From the NCBI GenBank assembly GCA_003697105.1, contig RFFQ01000181.1:1-28517 (forward strand): a stretch of DNA of 28,517 nt, written 5' to 3'. Below the pieces are notes generated by a model. The model was given only the letters and a program-made list of their open reading frames with translations, was not told the origin of the DNA and did not search any database. Of this stretch, positions 1,354 to 28,435 are shown in pieces; within the stretch, counting starts at the first letter, position 1; every line of letters starts with the position of its first letter. Source of the DNA: Gemmatimonadota bacterium (GTDB lineage Bacteria; 4572-55; J002). The position numbers were made by a program, and so were the translations under genes.

Positions 1354-1416
1354 AATCCTAATCCCTGAATCCTAATTCCTGAATCCTGATCCCTGAATCC
1401 TGAATCCTAATCCCTT
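1354..1416. repeat. Degenerate heptanucleotide tandem repeat (about nine units)
   Basis: Nine consecutive 7-mers in constant phase: AATCCTA, ATCCCTG, AATCCTA, ATTCCTG, AATCCTG, ATCCCTG, AATCCTG, AATCCTA, ATCCCTT. The consensus is A-[AT]-[TC]-C-C-T-[AG]. The array lies between a predicted promoter and the first gene of the operon, so it should be transcribed as leader RNA. The reverse complement of the same unit occurs at 14579-14606 inside a coding region. It resembles, by analogy only, the short tandemly repeated heptamers described in filamentous cyanobacteria. Confidence 0.85.
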
Positions 1417-8330: not shown

Positions 8331-10091
8331 TTACCGCAACAACACCATGGACGCCGTTATAGATTCGTGATCCGTTTGTAAGCGATAAAAATAGACACCA
8401 CTTTCCACCACCTGCTGTTGGTCATCCGTGCCATCCCACAGCACCGAATATTCACCCGGCGCTTGAGGCTGATCCACTACCGTGCGGATCAACCGTCCGG
8501 ACAGATCGTAAATCCGCAGGGTCACCTGACCGGTTTGAGGCAGGTGGTAGCGAATCGTGGTACGCGGATTAAACGGGTTGGGGAAGTTGCTCAACGAGAG
8601 CAGCGCCCCGGGGGTATCATATTGTGCCGGGTCTGGATCAACGGAGGTAAAATAATCCGCGGCGGCACTGGCATCGGCAATACCCCAGCCAAACAGATTA
8701 TCAGGACCGGCATCACCAGCGTCAACGGCGGTGTTCAAAAACGCCTCTCTTACTTCGGACATAGTCCAGGCGGGGTGTTTGCTCCAGACCGCCGCGGCGG
8801 CACCCGCAATGAGGGGGCACGACAGTGAGGTTCCAGAAGCGCGAGTATAGCCATGCGGATCGTTGGCATCCACGGTGAAGGTGGCGCGTCCTTGTGCCAT
8901 AATTTCTGGCTTGATACGCCCGTCATAAGTGGGTCCGATGGAGCTAAAACTGACGTATGCACCCAGCGAATCCACGGCACCGACGGCTAAAATCTCAAAG
9001 GCATCTGCCGGCGCATTCATGTAAGGATAATCGCTACCGCCGTTATTACCGTTGGAATTGCAGATTAATACGCCATTTTCCGCCGCCGTATTCGCCGCAA
9101 TCGTTGTGGTGGCGGTTTCGCCATCCATATCTTCGTACTCGTACCAATCGATGTAACCAAGCGAACTGCTCACCACGGACGCACCTTGATTTTCTGCCCA
9201 TTCGATGGCTTCTACCCAGTTATCTTCTTCTACGGGGGTTTCGCTGGTAACATCCTCTGTTTTGCACAAAATAACACTTGCCTCGTAAGCGGGGCTGATT
9301 AAGCGACCGGGAAAATATCCCACGGTTGCCCCCAAGGTCAGGGTGCCGTGCCGGTGCTGATTTGGATGATCGCCGCTTTCGTACCCCACATTCCCATCAT
9401 CATTGACGAAATCCCACTGGGCGATCACATTTAATTCTTCAAAAGCCTCATGAGCCAGATTGTAACCGGTATCCAGCATGGCAATAATGATCCCTTCTCC
9501 GGCGTACCCTTCTTCATGCAAGGGTGGAACATTGATCTGGTTCAGTTGGGTGTATGCCCCGCCGTAATCTTCTGGATCAAATTGGCGTTGCGTGGCTCGA
9601 GATCGGGTGGGATTCACCTCAACCGGCGAGAGGTCAACCGGCTCGGTGCGGCGTGTTTTTGCCACAAGTTGCACCCGCCGGATAAAATCAAACGGGATCA
9701 GTTGGTCGATTTGCCCGGCTTTAATGTCAATACTAATTGCATTGAGCCAGTTGGACGTTGCGCGATGTTTTTCAGCGAGGGCGATCACCTGTTCCACATA
9801 GGGGCGATAGACGGCAATGTCGCGGTAATCCACTATCTGGGATTTACCTTCTTTCAGGCGCCGGGTGATCGCCGGCGGCGAGAGCCGGTTCACCGCCGTT
9901 TGGAGGGCATCTTCCAGTTCCGACCGGGTTAAATCCCCCTTATCTTGAAAAAAGACCCACACCGTAAACACCTGATCGGCATTGGCGGTTTCTAACTGGG
10001 CAGCCAAACGGGGTGTAATCACTTCAGCAGCGACATCACTACCCCCAGCGAAGAGCAAAATGCTAATCCACATCAAAAACCGGTGTTTCAT
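8331..10091 (-). CDS. Secreted subtilisin-family (S8) serine protease with C-terminal sorting tail
   Basis: A 586-residue protein. It has a signal peptide (residues 1-22, ending VAA) and a prodomain-like region to about residue 190. The catalytic triad is Asp207 (MLDTGY), His248 (HRHGTL) and Ser422 (SGTSLSCP), with oxyanion Asn349 (SNGNNGG). The last roughly 90 residues form a beta-rich tail beginning SNFPNPFNPRTTIRYHLP and ending DHESITASMVLLR. This is the FlgD-like/type A sorting domain carried by secreted proteins of FCB bacteria, so surface delivery or release by a type IX-like secretion system is likely. The ribosome site AGGAGGT is excellent. Its own promoter is not obvious; it may be co-transcribed with cutA, 51 bp upstream. 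Substrates are unknown. Confidence 0.92.
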   Translation of the reverse strand: MKHRFLMWISILLFAGGSDVAAEVITPRLAAQLETANADQVFTVWVFFQDKGDLTRSELEDALQTAVNRLSPPAITRRLKEGKSQIVDYRDIAVYRPYVEQVIALAEKHRATSNWLNAISIDIKAGQIDQLIPFDFIRRVQLVAKTRRTEPVDLSPVEVNPTRSRATQRQFDPEDYGGAYTQLNQINVPPLHEEGYAGEGIIIAMLDTGYNLAHEAFEELNVIAQWDFVNDDGNVGYESGDHPNQHRHGTLTLGATVGYFPGRLISPAYEASVILCKTEDVTSETPVEEDNWVEAIEWAENQGASVVSSSLGYIDWYEYEDMDGETATTTIAANTAAENGVLICNSNGNNGGSDYPYMNAPADAFEILAVGAVDSLGAYVSFSSIGPTYDGRIKPEIMAQGRATFTVDANDPHGYTRASGTSLSCPLIAGAAAAVWSKHPAWTMSEVREAFLNTAVDAGDAGPDNLFGWGIADASAAADYFTSVDPDPAQYDTPGALLSLSNFPNPFNPRTTIRYHLPQTGQVTLRIYDLSGRLIRTVVDQPQAPGEYSVLWDGTDDQQQVVESGVYFYRLQTDHESITASMVLLR

Positions 10092-10680: not shown

Positions 10681-13600
10681 ATGATTCGTATCATCCTATT
10701 CGTACTCATTGCCGGAGGGTTATCACTTTTCGCAATGGTCAGCTTTTCCGCACCGGGGAAACATCCGGCAAATGCCTTTAACGCCGGCAACCAAGAGTTT
10801 GAAAAGAAAAATTATGTCAAAGCGTTGGACTATTACCAGCAGGCATTAGAACACGAAAAAAACTCCGAGAAGGCACTGGAAATTCAATATCAAATTGGAT
10901 TGTGCTATGTCCGGCTGAACCGAGAGAGGGACTACCGGCAGAAATTTGAGGAGTTCATTTCAGATTATCTGGAAACCACAAAAGGGACGATCTGGGAAGC
11001 CCGGGCATATTACCTAAAAGGGCTTGCTTTCCAGAACTACTATTATTACCCGGACGGGGAAATCCATCCATTTGAACAGGCACGGCTGATTTACAATGAC
11101 TATCTGAAGAGCAAAAAACTACGCGCTCAAGAACTGCTGGAAACCGACATCCGGTTGGCAGAAGCACTGGAAGCGCAAATTTACAATTACAGTTACCGCC
11201 GGATGGAGCATCAGCGGCAGGAGATGGATAATCCCCCCGCCGGTGACGATCCATTTTACGAAGAATGGGAACGGGAATCGTTGAAAGAAACAGACGCGAA
11301 ATACCACAAGGAATGGGAAATCCGCAAGCGAATTGTCTATTTGTTCCGTGAAATGTCGCGCTTGAGCAAAAAACCGGCGGATCAATTTACCGTGCACTAC
11401 AATTTGGCGCACTTTCTTCGCCGGCAAGCCCGCACGGAAATTTACACCCAGGAGGCCATCAAACGGTTTCGGGATGTCACCGCAGAAGCCCCCGATACCA
11501 AGCTCCGCGAGGATGCCCAATTTAGTATTGCCTTTTTCTACTTGGAGCAGGAAAATTGGCTCACAGCGGAAACTGAATTGGAAGCCCTGATCCGCAAATT
11601 CCCCACCTCACGGTGGGTCTCTGATGCCCGGCGAGCACTCCAGCAAATACGCAAAAAAGAACTTCGGATGGATGTCCAAACAGCCTTTTTGCCGGACCAA
11701 ACTCCTACGATTACCGTGACTACCCGGAACCTAAAAGCAGTCGAGTTCACCCTCTATCCCTTTGATTTTGCCGAATTTTTACAATCAGCAGCCGGGCTGA
11801 AAGCGGAGGCGTTGAACCATTTCAACGAGCTTTTCGGGGATATTGAGCAGGCGGTGAAATACGCTGATAAACCCCTCCACAAGTGGACAGAAACAGTCGA
11901 GGATCGCGACGATCACAATCCGGTGGCAACCGAGTTAACACTCGATTTAAATGAGATCAAAAAAGGTGAACCGGTCATCGGTACATATCTGCTGGTGGGC
12001 AAGCGCGGGCAAAATTCCACTGCCGCCTTGATTGTCGTCTCTGATCTTACCATCATCCAGCGTACCGCCGATGATAAAGTCGTCACTTTTGTAGCAGATG
12101 CCCTTAGCGGCGCTCCCGTCCCCAACGCGGAAGTAACGATCCTCAAGCACCAACATCAATTTCAAGGTGTTTCCGACGAAAACGGGCTTTTTGAAACCCA
12201 CACGGCGCTTAGTTCCTGTGCGGGGTATTCCTGTTTTATCGCCTCCTACGCTGTTGTGGGCAACCGGTTTGCCGCCACACCGCAACAATACGGCTATAGT
12301 TATCGCGAGGATCGCCGTCAGATACAGAGCTACACCATTACCGACCGTCCGGTGTACCGTCCCGAACAAATGGTTTACTTCAAACACATTTTCCGTGAAA
12401 ATCGGGACGGGGTTTACTTCCCATTGAACAACACAGATGTACGGGTAATCATTAAAGACCCGCGCTGGAGCACGGTGTTGGATACCACCCTTCAAACGAA
12501 TGAGTTCGGTTCTATTGCCGGATCATACACTCTGCCAGAAGAAGCGCCCTTAGGGGTATATCGATTTGAGCTTAGCCGTAAAAATCAACGGATCTACGCC
12601 GCCAGTGCACCCCAATTTCGGGTGGAGGAGTACAAACGCCCGGAAGTCAAACTCAATGTCAGTGCGGATGAGAGCAATTTGCGCGTTGGGGAAACGATCA
12701 AAATCACCTTAAATGCCGAGTATTACTTTGGCGGTGGCGTGGCGGATGCGGATGTAAATTACACCATCCGGCGGCAGAATTATCGCCCCACCTTTTATTC
12801 CGGCAATGAGTACGACTGGCTGTACGGGCGCGGTTTTGATGATGAGAACCGGGACCGCGGCTGGTGGTGGTATCGCTGGTGGTACTACGACCGCAACGAA
12901 ACGCTGATGACCTCCGGTAGTGCCAAAACGGACGCAGAGGGCAATGTGGAGATTGAAATCAAAACGGACGATCTACTGACAGACGAGTGGGAAGATGCCT
13001 ATCTCATCACCATCGAGGCGAATGTGACCGATGCCAGCCGCCGTCAGATTGATGCCCGCAAGGAGATCATCCTACCGGTGAGTGAATTTTATGCCTATGT
13101 GGAGAGTGAACGGAACTTTCTGCTCCCTAACGAGAAAGCCAAATTTACCATTTTCACCCTGACGCCCAACTACGCTCCTAAAGATGCCGATGGGACGGTG
13201 CGGGTACTCAAATTAACCCCGAAAGATGATCCCCAAGAAAATGAAGACCCCTACACCGAAAAAGAGATTTATTCTGAAGAGCTTAGCACTAAAAACGGGC
13301 GCGGCGAATTTATTTGGATACCGAAAGATGACGGGCGATTTCGCATCCGATTTGAGGCGCGGGATAAGCGCGAGGCGCTCGTCACCGGGCAGACCGAATT
13401 GTGGGTCGCCGGTGAGAAATTCTCCGGGCGAACCTATCGTTTTGCCAATCTGCAAGTGACCACCAACAAATCGACTTACGCCGAAGGTGAAACGGCGCAT
13501 CTGCTGATCACCACTGCCCAGAATGAGAGCCACGTCTTTTTGACGAGCGGAGCGAACCGCGACCTGTACGGGGCACAAGTCATCGCAATTAAAGGTGGCG

Positions 13601-16536
13601 CGAAGACAATCCCCCTGAAAATTACCGAGCAACACGTACCTAACTTTTTTATCACCGGTTATCAGGTGCAGAAGGGCGTGATCGAAACAGACAACCGGCA
13701 GGTGTTTGTGCCACCTGCCAAGCACTTCATTAACGTGGATTTGACTGCAGATAAAACCACCTATAAACCGGGTGAAACCGGTACGTTTACGCTGAAAACC
13801 ACCGATTCCCAAGGTAAACCGATTGTCGCCGAAGTGGCGCTGAGTGTGTTCGATGCCTCTTTGCTCTACATCCAAAATGAAACCTCCCCGGACATCCGCC
13901 GCTACTACTACGGCAGTCTGCGCGGGGACGCCACCGGCACGCAAAATTCATTCGATTACCGCCTTGCGCCGGTCAGTGAAGATAAAACCACCTACAAGGA
14001 TTATGAGCGACACGGCTACCCCGATGGCTGGTACGGTTTGAGTGATGGACTACGGTATGAGCTACTGGGTGAGGAGATCGATCAACGCACCGAACACATG
14101 AGCATGGGCGCCGCCGGAGAGGGACGCCAAGTCATGGCAATGGACATGGCAGCACCCGCGCCAATGGCGGAAGAAGCCCCCATGATGAAGTCTGCTCCTA
14201 CCGAGGAAGCCGAATTTACCGATGCGGATGAAACCCGCCGCGACGCCAATGAGAAGAAAAAAGAAGGGGCGAATGTCGAGCCAGAAGTACGCACCAACTT
14301 TGCCGAAACCGCGCTCTGGCGTCCGTTTGTCGTCACGGATGAAAATGGGGAGGCAACAGTTGATTGTGACTTCCCGGATGCACTGACCACGTGGCGGGCA
14401 AGCGCCAAAGCGGTCTCCGGTAAAACGCACGTGGGCGAGGCGATGACGGAAGTCCGCACCAAAAAAGAGGTGCTAGTGCGCCTGCAAGCACCTCGCTTTT
14501 TTGTGGAACGGGACGAAGTAGTGATCTCGGCAAACGTCCACAATTACAGTGAAACGGTGCAGGAATTAACGGTGGAATTAGGGATTAGGGATCAGGGATC
14601 AGGAGTTAGCAAATTGCTACGCTTGATCTCGGCGGAAAATCCGGTACAAATCACGTTAGCACCGAATTCCGAAGAGCGGGTCGATTGGCGAGTGGCAGTG
14701 GTCGGCAATGGCGAGGTGACAATCCGCGTCTCTGCCGCCTCTCCGCAGGATGGCGATGCGATGGAATTGACGTTTCCGGTTTTTGAATACGGCATCGAAA
14801 AGATGGTAGCCCATCTGGGCGACCTGCGCACAACGGATCAGGCGGAATTTACCCTGACCGTGCCGGATGAGATCAAGCAAGGGTCGCAGAACTTGCAAAT
14901 CGTCCTCTCGCCTTCACTGGCGGCGATCACCATCGATGCCCTGCCCTATCTGGCGGATTACCCCTACGGCTGTTTCGAGCAAACGATCAACCGCTTTGTA
15001 CCGGCAGTGCTGGTGGCGAAAACACTGCAGAACTTGGGAATGAATCTGGAAGATTTGGAACATGCGCGGAAAAACATCATGGCAAAAGAGCTTGCCGCCG
15101 GGCGCTACCGGCATCGGGAAAGTCCGGTTTACGACAGCCAAGAATTGCAACAGATGATCGATACCGGTTTGAATCGCATTCCTAAATTCCAGAACCGTGA
15201 CGGCGGGTTCGGCTGGTGGACACAGGATTCGCAATCCGACCCTTACATGACGGCGTTAGGTGTAAATTCGCTGATAATCGCCCAATCGTGCGATCTGAAT
15301 GTTAACCAAAATATGCTGCGCCGGGCGGTGAATTATCTGCAAAATTATGTGAAAACACGGGATAATGTGCCGGAGAATCTGCAAACGTATATTTACTATG
15401 CCCTCTCCAATTATGATCCAAAAAAGATCGACATGGAGGCGCTGGACACACTTTTTGGTCGGCGGGATGAACTTTCCTACTATTCTTGGGCGCTGTTAGG
15501 GTTGACCTATGCCAACAAAGTATTGGAAGAACTAGGCACGTTTCGGCGGGGGCAATTGATGGTGGCATCATTGGATGAACCATTAGTGGAGCAAAATTTA
15601 GACAGTCCGGCGTTTGAAAAGATGGATATTTTGCGGCAAAATTTACTAGACCGGATGCGTACAGATGACCAAAATGGCACGGCATTCTGGCAACCTGAAG
15701 GCAGTTATTGGTGGTATTGGTGGAATAATCGGGTAGAAACTACCGCCACCACTCTGCAATTTTTGAATCGGGTGGATCCACACAATGAGAATCTGCCGCG
15801 AGTGGTCAAATGGTTAGTCAATAATCGACGCGGCAATCGCTGGTACTCCACCAAAGATACCGCGCTTGGCGTGCATGTACTGCTGGAATACGCACGGTCA
15901 CAGGGGGAATTAGACGCCGATTACGAATTGACCGTTAAGATGGACGGGGAACCCCTGAAAGTCATTCGCGTCACACCGGAAAATTTGCTGACCTTTGATA
16001 ATAAAATTTTTGTGGAAGCGCCTGAATTGAACCGCGGTGAGCATCAAATTGAAATCAGCAAAAATGGCACGGGCAACCTCTATTATTCTGCCTTTGTGGA
16101 GTACTTCACACAGGAAGAACAGATTGAGGGCACCGGTAATGAAATTTTCATCACCCGGACATATTTTAAGAAAGCAGAAGCGGGGGGTGAAAAGCAAACA
16201 TTAGCGGATGGGGACCGGCTAAACAGTGGTGATGAAATTGAAGTGGAATTGACCATCCATGCCAAAAATGACTACGATTATTTGGTGTTTGAAGACATGA
16301 AACCGGCCGGGTGCGAGTTCACCCAATTGAAATCGGCTGGGGGTTACATGGAACTGCGCGACGAAAAGGCGGTTTTTTTCCGGCATTCACTCCGGCAGGG
16401 AGAGACAACGATTCGATATAACTTGCGGGCAGAAATTCCGGGCGATTTCCATGCACTGCCCACCAAGGGACTTGCCATGTACGCCCCGGATGTGCGATCC
16501 ATCAGTGATAGTTTTACCCTGAAGATTGAAGATTAA
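10681..16536 (+). CDS. Very large alpha-2-macroglobulin with N-terminal TPR region and intact thioester motif
   Basis: A 1951-residue secreted or periplasmic protein with an SPase I-type signal (residues 1-23, no lipobox cysteine). Residues about 30-335 carry tetratricopeptide-like repeats (GNQEFEKKNYVKALDYYQQAL and later copies). Macroglobulin domains follow: the MG2 hallmark TDRPVYRPEQMVYFKHIF near residue 554 and the A2M hallmark ALWRPFVVTDENGEATVDC near 1210. A Met/Ala/Pro/Glu-rich segment at 1140-1200 sits where a bait region could be. YPYGCFEQ supplies the internal thioester (Cys1431, Gln1434), followed by an alpha/alpha-toroid thioester domain (GGFGWW..DPYMTALG) and C-terminal beta domains. 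Such proteins trap proteases, probably protecting the envelope. No penicillin-binding protein 1C gene, the common partner, is adjacent. A 7-bp repeat tract lies in frame near residue 1300. Confidence 0.93.
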   Translation: MIRIILFVLIAGGLSLFAMVSFSAPGKHPANAFNAGNQEFEKKNYVKALDYYQQALEHEKNSEKALEIQYQIGLCYVRLNRERDYRQKFEEFISDYLETTKGTIWEARAYYLKGLAFQNYYYYPDGEIHPFEQARLIYNDYLKSKKLRAQELLETDIRLAEALEAQIYNYSYRRMEHQRQEMDNPPAGDDPFYEEWERESLKETDAKYHKEWEIRKRIVYLFREMSRLSKKPADQFTVHYNLAHFLRRQARTEIYTQEAIKRFRDVTAEAPDTKLREDAQFSIAFFYLEQENWLTAETELEALIRKFPTSRWVSDARRALQQIRKKELRMDVQTAFLPDQTPTITVTTRNLKAVEFTLYPFDFAEFLQSAAGLKAEALNHFNELFGDIEQAVKYADKPLHKWTETVEDRDDHNPVATELTLDLNEIKKGEPVIGTYLLVGKRGQNSTAALIVVSDLTIIQRTADDKVVTFVADALSGAPVPNAEVTILKHQHQFQGVSDENGLFETHTALSSCAGYSCFIASYAVVGNRFAATPQQYGYSYREDRRQIQSYTITDRPVYRPEQMVYFKHIFRENRDGVYFPLNNTDVRVIIKDPRWSTVLDTTLQTNEFGSIAGSYTLPEEAPLGVYRFELSRKNQRIYAASAPQFRVEEYKRPEVKLNVSADESNLRVGETIKITLNAEYYFGGGVADADVNYTIRRQNYRPTFYSGNEYDWLYGRGFDDENRDRGWWWYRWWYYDRNETLMTSGSAKTDAEGNVEIEIKTDDLLTDEWEDAYLITIEANVTDASRRQIDARKEIILPVSEFYAYVESERNFLLPNEKAKFTIFTLTPNYAPKDADGTVRVLKLTPKDDPQENEDPYTEKEIYSEELSTKNGRGEFIWIPKDDGRFRIRFEARDKREALVTGQTELWVAGEKFSGRTYRFANLQVTTNKSTYAEGETAHLLITTAQNESHVFLTSGANRDLYGAQVIAIKGGAKTIPLKITEQHVPNFFITGYQVQKGVIETDNRQVFVPPAKHFINVDLTADKTTYKPGETGTFTLKTTDSQGKPIVAEVALSVFDASLLYIQNETSPDIRRYYYGSLRGDATGTQNSFDYRLAPVSEDKTTYKDYERHGYPDGWYGLSDGLRYELLGEEIDQRTEHMSMGAAGEGRQVMAMDMAAPAPMAEEAPMMKSAPTEEAEFTDADETRRDANEKKKEGANVEPEVRTNFAETALWRPFVVTDENGEATVDCDFPDALTTWRASAKAVSGKTHVGEAMTEVRTKKEVLVRLQAPRFFVERDEVVISANVHNYSETVQELTVELGIRDQGSGVSKLLRLISAENPVQITLAPNSEERVDWRVAVVGNGEVTIRVSAASPQDGDAMELTFPVFEYGIEKMVAHLGDLRTTDQAEFTLTVPDEIKQGSQNLQIVLSPSLAAITIDALPYLADYPYGCFEQTINRFVPAVLVAKTLQNLGMNLEDLEHARKNIMAKELAAGRYRHRESPVYDSQELQQMIDTGLNRIPKFQNRDGGFGWWTQDSQSDPYMTALGVNSLIIAQSCDLNVNQNMLRRAVNYLQNYVKTRDNVPENLQTYIYYALSNYDPKKIDMEALDTLFGRRDELSYYSWALLGLTYANKVLEELGTFRRGQLMVASLDEPLVEQNLDSPAFEKMDILRQNLLDRMRTDDQNGTAFWQPEGSYWWYWWNNRVETTATTLQFLNRVDPHNENLPRVVKWLVNNRRGNRWYSTKDTALGVHVLLEYARSQGELDADYELTVKMDGEPLKVIRVTPENLLTFDNKIFVEAPELNRGEHQIEISKNGTGNLYYSAFVEYFTQEEQIEGTGNEIFITRTYFKKAEAGGEKQTLADGDRLNSGDEIEVELTIHAKNDYDYLVFEDMKPAGCEFTQLKSAGGYMELRDEKAVFFRHSLRQGETTIRYNLRAEIPGDFHALPTKGLAMYAPDVRSISDSFTLKIED
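14579..14606. repeat. Heptanucleotide repeat embedded in the macroglobulin reading frame
   Basis: Four 7-mers in phase: TAGGGAT, TAGGGAT, CAGGGAT, CAGGAGT, with partial units on both sides (14574-14578 and 14607-14610). The reverse complement (ATCCCTA, ATCCCTG and so on) is the same unit family as the array at 1354-1416. It encodes a Gly/Asp/Gln/Ser-rich stretch between two predicted beta strands, so the reading frame is preserved. Confidence 0.8.
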
Positions 16537-26822: not shown

Positions 26823-26928
26823 TCTGAAACAAAAACTTACAAAAAAACCTAAAAAAAATATCTATAACCATCTGGAAATAAAAGAGTTAACTTCAACAAA
26901 ATCTGAGAAAAAATCCCTGAAATTTTTC

Positions 26929-27040: not shown

Positions 27041-28435
27041 ATGAGTTCCACAGCGGCTCAACTTTGGGAAAAGGTATTAGAAGGAATCCGATCGGAAGTC
27101 GATGAACAAAGTTACGAAACGTGGCTTGCCAGTGCAAAAGGCGTGTCACTCTCAACAGACTTTCTATATATTGAGGTCGAGAGTGATTTTGCTGCGAATT
27201 ATATTTATCGTAACATGAAGGATCAACTCGAAGCGGTGTTAAAAAAAACGGTCAACAATAAATCCGTTGGGATTAAATGTATCGTTGCTGAAGGTCAAGC
27301 CCCTCGCCCTCAACACGCGGAATCACCCGCACCTTCCACACTCCGCCCACCGGATCATTCTCGGAAACGGGTTTCCGGAGCCACCCCGGTTCAAACCCTT
27401 GAAAGCACTTTAAATCCGAAATACACATTTAGTGAATTTGTTGTCGGGAAAAGTAACCAGTTCGCCCATGCCGCAGCAAAAGGTGTGGCTGAAAAACCTG
27501 CCCAAATTTATAACCCGCTTTTTATCTACGGTGGTGTCGGTTTAGGAAAAACACACTTGATGCAAGCAATTGGGCATAGCGTTAAAGAACAACAGCCCCA
27601 GAGCAAAGTCTATTATGTTCAAGCCGAAAATTTCATGAATGAAATGATCCAATCGATCCAGCATGGTAATATCATGGATTTTCGGAATAAACACCGGAAT
27701 TTGGATGTATTATTGATAGATGATATTCAATTTATTGCCGGAAAAGAAAGTACGCAGGAAGAGTTTTTCCACACCTTTAATTCACTTCATGGGGCACACA
27801 AGCAGATTATTGTCACAAGTGACCGCCCTCCTAAAGAAATACCCACCTTGGAAGCACGGCTGGTATCTCGTTTTGAATGGGGGTTAATTACCGATATTCA
27901 ACCCCCAGATTTTGAAACACGGGTGGCAATTCTCCGAAAAAAAGCCGAATCCCACTCCCTTGAAATCCCCAACAATGTGATGCACTTCATTGCACACAAT
28001 ATTGATTCCAATATTCGAGAGCTAGAAGGCTCGCTGATCCGTTTAATTGCCTATGCCCAAATTAAAGACCTGCCCATCACGATTGAAATGGCAGGAGAGG
28101 TTCTTAAAGATATGATGGGTGAGGGAAATCACACTATCACAATTGATATTATTCAGCGGGTTGTTGGTGATTATTTTAATGTTTCAATGGCGGATCTCAT
28201 ATCCTCCAAGCGGCATAGCCACCTTGCCCGCTCGCGTCAAATCGCGATGTACCTCTCCCGGGAGTACACCAACGCCTCTCTGATTGAAATTGGGAAAAAT
28301 TTCGGTGATCGGGATCACGCCACGGTTATTCACGCCCATAAAAAAATTAAGAAAGAACTCTCGAAAGAGACGGAAACAGCTAAAGATATTAAAGAACTCA
28401 CCACAATACTTCAGGAGTGGCTGAACCAAAAATAA
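27041..28435 (+). CDS. dnaA: Chromosomal replication initiator protein DnaA
   Basis: A 464-residue protein of standard DnaA length with all four domains. Domain I (1-80) has LWEKVLEGIRSEVDEQSYETW. A Pro/Ser-rich linker (85-120) is domain II. The AAA+ domain III has Walker A GGVGLGKT at 164-171 and Walker B LLIDDI near 224-229, followed by SRFEWGLI. Domain IV ends with the DNA-binding signature FGDRDHATVIHAHKKI (DHATV at 425-429). DnaA binds oriC boxes and melts the origin with ATP. A ribosome site AAGGGAAG precedes ATG 27041. The gene has its own consensus promoter. dnaN would commonly follow, but the window ends 82 bp later. Confidence 0.98.
   Translation: MSSTAAQLWEKVLEGIRSEVDEQSYETWLASAKGVSLSTDFLYIEVESDFAANYIYRNMKDQLEAVLKKTVNNKSVGIKCIVAEGQAPRPQHAESPAPSTLRPPDHSRKRVSGATPVQTLESTLNPKYTFSEFVVGKSNQFAHAAAKGVAEKPAQIYNPLFIYGGVGLGKTHLMQAIGHSVKEQQPQSKVYYVQAENFMNEMIQSIQHGNIMDFRNKHRNLDVLLIDDIQFIAGKESTQEEFFHTFNSLHGAHKQIIVTSDRPPKEIPTLEARLVSRFEWGLITDIQPPDFETRVAILRKKAESHSLEIPNNVMHFIAHNIDSNIRELEGSLIRLIAYAQIKDLPITIEMAGEVLKDMMGEGNHTITIDIIQRVVGDYFNVSMADLISSKRHSHLARSRQIAMYLSREYTNASLIEIGKNFGDRDHATVIHAHKKIKKELSKETETAKDIKELTTILQEWLNQK

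Follow-up and report, generated by a model that had tools for sequence, protein, structure and literature searches.

A G-rich heptad array in frame within a bacterial alpha-2-macroglobulin gene, probably copied from a dispersed repeat family

A bacterial alpha-2-macroglobulin (A2M) gene carries, in frame, a short tandem array of 7-bp units, and the explanation that we favour, at a probability of roughly 0.7, is that this array is a coding member of a dispersed family of GGGATYA-type, G-rich heptads, copied in from an existing array. The window, that is, the whole stretch of 28,517 nucleotides analysed, holds the following features.

10681 to 16536, plus strand: A2M gene, 1,951 residues, with MG2, bait region, A2M, thioester and bMG10 domains
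14579 to 14606, plus strand: four perfect heptads in the sequence, TAGGGAT, TAGGGAT, CAGGGAT and CAGGAGT, with partial units out to about 14574 and 14610
14581 to 14613, plus strand: codons for GIRDQGSGVSK, A2M residues 1301 to 1311, a modelled strand end and loop
14593 to 14595, plus strand: CAG (Gln), the one place in the array where Y coincides with a codon's first base; with a T-type unit, the commoner kind, this codon would be TAG (stop)
1354 to 1409, minus strand: eight units of the A2M-array family in the intergenic space that separates a SpoIIE-type phosphatase gene from a small membrane-like ORF

The sequence matches the description in an earlier note on this DNA of four heptads with partial flanking units at 14574–14610, with GGAAT 5′ of the heptads and TAGC 3′, and agrees with its assignment of the array at 1354 to the same unit family on the opposite strand. 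The A2M ORF (10681–16536) stays open and in frame across the heptads, as that note also stated, and encodes G1301-IRDQGSGVS-K1311. The array is a direct tandem of ~35 bp, not a palindromic element of ~100–150 bp. Elsewhere in the window, a subtilase gene (8331–10073, minus strand) with FlgD-like and Por_Secre_tail C-terminal domains, tails that are common in this genome, adjoins A2M; dnaA lies at the window end (27041–28435), and just upstream of it is an A-rich 12-bp tandem repeat (26827–26858) that is possibly part of an origin region.

The proposal that the heptad belongs to a genome-wide family on both strands was upheld. A search of the whole 4.18 Mb genome for three consecutive YAGGRDT units gave 47 overlapping matches (28 forward, 19 reverse). 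Once overlaps were merged, 25 arrays remained, each with at least three units; the same pattern read backwards gave 0 matches genome-wide. Since TAGGGAT is the same read backwards, such a control is uninformative for that unit, and the YAGGRDT triple and Markov controls were used instead. A 1.22 Mb sample contained 26 arrays of at least two units, whereas three third-order Markov sequences of equal size contained none. Array-bearing contigs were over-represented in that sample, which makes the count over the whole genome the fairer measure.

Several of these arrays share more than their unit. The A2M array and the intergenic array at C49 have 22 identical bases in common. At C66, C67, C160 and C183, heptads are joined through a fixed linker, TTCATGTAATTC, to octamers like AACTCCCG; the composite heptad-linker-octamer repeats at C66, C160 and C183 are identical over 42–50 bases, with the full 50 bases shared by C160 and C183, and a second linker, GGGGAACGAAA, connects heptads with octamers at C60, C109 and C138. 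Composite repeats of this kind would be expected from block copying, and not easily from independent slippage. The longest string common to sites averages 20.3, versus 18.0 (sd 0.6) for shuffled units, with 0 of 60 shuffles as high; this excess is real but modest, and is partly due to the composite repeats rather than to A2M. The suggestion in the earlier note that the family can expand or insert into genes stands in part: spread by copying fits both the composite repeats and the multi-unit strings that sites have in common, but no machinery that moves the heptads was found, and for the A2M array no transposase, terminal repeats or target duplication was identified. The octamers (AACTCCCG / AACTCCCA) make up a second dispersed family, seen in G000 at C66, C67, C101, C109, C145, C160, C173 and C183 (for example L164:9557-9690) and often joined to heptads via TTCATGTAATTC or GGGGAACGAAA.

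A different origin, which we consider unlikely but the strongest of the alternatives, is that a chance seed in the A2M loop was expanded locally by polymerase slippage, its likeness to the intergenic arrays reflecting a shared tendency of the replication machinery to produce G-rich heptads, with no copying involved. Heptad matches occur in 38 of the 386 genomes searched, in unrelated families and in several cases in large numbers (e.g. G228, G332, G066 and G171), which suggests recurrent independent birth, and polymerase slippage has been cited as a possible cause of heptamer abundance (PMC4692102). However, the A2M array mixes unit variants in the order that it has in common with C49, and so does not consist of copies of one seed; the composite repeats show heptads moving as blocks; and single-unit slippage within the gene would go through frameshifted states. 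The heptad class is widespread but patchy among bacteria, and the one same-class genome searched had no YAGGRDT-triple match. At three loci (L050:6934-7009, L053:10453-10550 and L158:9165-9233), heptad arrays lie close together on opposite strands, G-rich then C-rich, and could form long hairpins; similar paired arrays have been described for Xanthomonas (PMC4692102).

If the A2M array was copied in, as we favour, a short stretch of an existing heptad array would have entered the gene, most simply by template switching or as repair filler, and would have replaced part of a hairpin turn. The insert may then have persisted because its orientation and frame were permissive, its unit encoding a putatively flexible heptapeptide, Q-G-S-G-V/I-R-D. 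Comparison with homologues is consistent with such a history. The closest, from a same-class genome and 53% identical overall, aligns with five residues missing exactly at the array, and two distant homologues lack six residues opposite GIRDQG..., with alignable strands flanking the gap. The alignment proposed in the earlier note thus found homologues without these 5–6 residues, and no distant homologue carried the residues in unrelated codons; the note's estimate of about 10 added residues was too high, the net gain being 5–6. Because this net gain of 15–18 bp is smaller than the 28 bp of the four heptads, the ancestral turn was presumably partly replaced, or the insert later trimmed. An AlphaFold model of a 201-residue A2M segment, of modest quality (mean pLDDT 63, ~80 at the array), predicts a strand up to residue ~1304 followed by a loop at ~1305–1312, in keeping with the inter-strand position that had been suggested; the structures that it matches best are of the macroglobulin family, namely chains of complement C3, C4 and C5 and of bacterial A2M. 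In all likelihood, then, the array was copied from the dispersed heptad family and is specific to this lineage, as an in-frame insertion or a replacement.

Plotting the arrays against genes, another check put forward earlier, placed most of them in intergenic DNA. Only 3 of the 25 lie inside genes, versus ~21 expected from random placement (binomial P = 5e-16) at a coding fraction of 85%, taken from our own gene calls on 1.75 Mb sampled in stretches. The three are the A2M array, one in the linker of mutL, and one in a linker before a secretion tail on C95. The last, a degenerate array in a partial protein (C95:117-137), is coded by the C-rich strand and stands immediately before the Por_Secre_tail domain, which rules out strictly sense-only insertion. 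An array at C96:483 was rejected as an in-gene case, as the gene there is unconvincing. On C51, a match of two units precedes a similar tail and may be a case like that on C95 or a chance occurrence. Heptad-like DNA encoding PESYSL lies directly 5′ of YPNPFNP secretion tails at L050:1-408 and L104:11573-12616; of the 25 tails of this kind in the sampled DNA, only these two have it. The mutL array is as follows.

L162:2755-2834 (G000:C136): mutL (gene at L162:1711-3573), interdomain linker, with an in-frame array of about ten degenerate heptads that encodes DQESGVRKQGLGVRDQEAGVREQGS

It corresponds to residues ~349–375, between the DNA_mis_repair domain (ending at 328) and MutL_C (starting at 436). 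All four of its Y positions at the first base of a codon are CAG, and a 21-bp superperiod is weak (identity 0.73 at lag 3 versus 0.60 at lag 1). Since the linkers of 13 homologues are not alignable and MutL here does not exceed its counterpart in the same-class relative in length, we claim no net insertion in mutL.

The reading frame constrains which arrays can be coding. A 7-bp unit passes through all three frames in 21 bases, and on the G-rich strand YAG falls as a codon in every third unit; because TAG is a stop, the unit at that position must be CAG (Gln). The counterpart codon on the C-rich strand is TRA, which in perfect arrays is a stop. The 12 intergenic arrays with at least four perfect units have 36 frames in each direction, of which 3 were open in sense and 0 in antisense. 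With most frames closed by stops, in-gene arrays are a filtered set, mostly sense. The same arithmetic bears on copy number. When one or two heptads were changed computationally, A2M met a stop at residue 1305 or 1313 of 1951, within ~15 codons, and MutL at 350–364 of 620 (~357 for a one-unit change), whereas a change of three heptads left the frame open and altered the length by 7 residues in either direction. The idea that copy number is a source of variation in the A2M loop is not supported in that form, as loop length can shift only in multiples of three units. Once in the gene, the array should instead act as a potential slippage-prone off switch rather than a dial, a prediction computed from the sequence; because it is short and imperfect, slippage may be rare.

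We also weighed whether the array is kept for a role of the nucleic acid itself, for example as a G-quadruplex in mRNA or DNA that affects A2M expression. The related heptads GGGAATC and GGGGA(C/T)T form quadruplexes in vitro, with four units preferred (PMC4692102), but the A2M array has only three GGG tracts plus a GG, its fourth unit being CAGGAGT; a place at codon 1300 of 1951 does not resemble a regulatory site, and that study's authors saw no regulatory role for their heptads. We regard this role as improbable. Least credible is coincidence, with normal A2M residues that happen to show a heptad periodicity: loops of macroglobulin domains do differ in length between homologues, but no such run arose in simulated sequence, over which the heptad is enriched genome-wide, the array matches the genome's own repeat family exactly, a second in-gene array is present in mutL, and the homologues have a gap at this very site.

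Array loci were also fetched from ten other genomes, in-gene cases being counted only with Pfam support. Three in-frame arrays in unrelated bacteria were confirmed, all sense.

L271:1172-2065: HisIE, array between PRA-CH and PRA-PH, SQESGVRSQEL
L246:483-2438: ABC transporter, array between ABC_membrane and ABC_tran, GIRDQGS
L252:1091-3019: BadF/BcrA-type ATPase gene, VRSQESGVRS

ORFs over arrays in G202 and G332 had no Pfam support and were not counted. Together with A2M and mutL, these cases indicate that one heptapeptide type (Q-G/E-S-G-V/I-R-x) has arisen from heptad DNA in proteins of unrelated bacteria. A broader reading, which we put forward as speculative and rather doubtful, is that G-rich heptads spread by themselves as a repeat class across bacteria, time and again seeding this peptide into conserved proteins at their linkers and loops, and that here mutL and the surface A2M would serve as slippage on/off switches, mismatch-repair state and repeat instability reinforcing each other.

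G-rich heptads, repeats inserted in frame, and switching of mutL by repeats have all been described before, but separately; what is added here is an intergenic heptad family in frame both within a folded surface-protein domain and in the mutL linker of one genome. This gives a testable route from non-coding repeats to new protein loops and linkers, and predicts that mutL in this lineage may be switchable by repeat slippage. In Salmonella, mutL contains three 6-bp tandem units, the copy number of which can inactivate mismatch repair (PMC2955026); the mutL described here instead has about ten degenerate 7-bp units in an interdomain linker, where a one-unit change is predicted to shift the frame.

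The closest known systems are the G-rich heptameric repeats GGGAATC of Xanthomonas and GGGGA(C/T)T of Nostoc, which occur on both strands, mainly in intergenic DNA with a minority in genes, and in part as inverted pairs (PMC4692102). The present family resembles them in its 7-bp G-rich unit, its dispersal over both strands and its over-representation in non-coding DNA. It differs in that the unit is GGGATYA, the arrays are fewer and shorter, octamers are joined to them, and the in-gene copies are placed in specific loops and linkers. No unit is GGGAATC, and GGGATTA fits the pattern GGGANTN but GGGATCA does not; by sequence, the family appears to work like those repeats without being a member by its unit. 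TAACTGA heptads of marine Beggiatoaceae, cyanobacteria and Bacteroidetes are likewise intergenic, with a few in-ORF arrays that encode the heptapeptide LSVISYQ, and there too stop codons restrict which orientation can be coding; however, they lie mostly just upstream of start codons, with in-ORF copies mostly at protein ends, whereas the A2M and mutL copies are internal (PMC4679880). The title of a further paper reports cyanobacterial heptad repeats inside the RNase P RNA gene. Rickettsia palindromic elements (Ogata et al., via PMC10969869) stand in frame in unrelated genes and are seemingly tolerated by the protein. The in-frame presence in unrelated genes that marks these elements and MITEs was also found here (A2M, mutL and the secretion-tail protein), but the Rickettsia elements are ~150 bp long and palindromic, and the A2M array is a tandem of ~35 bp.
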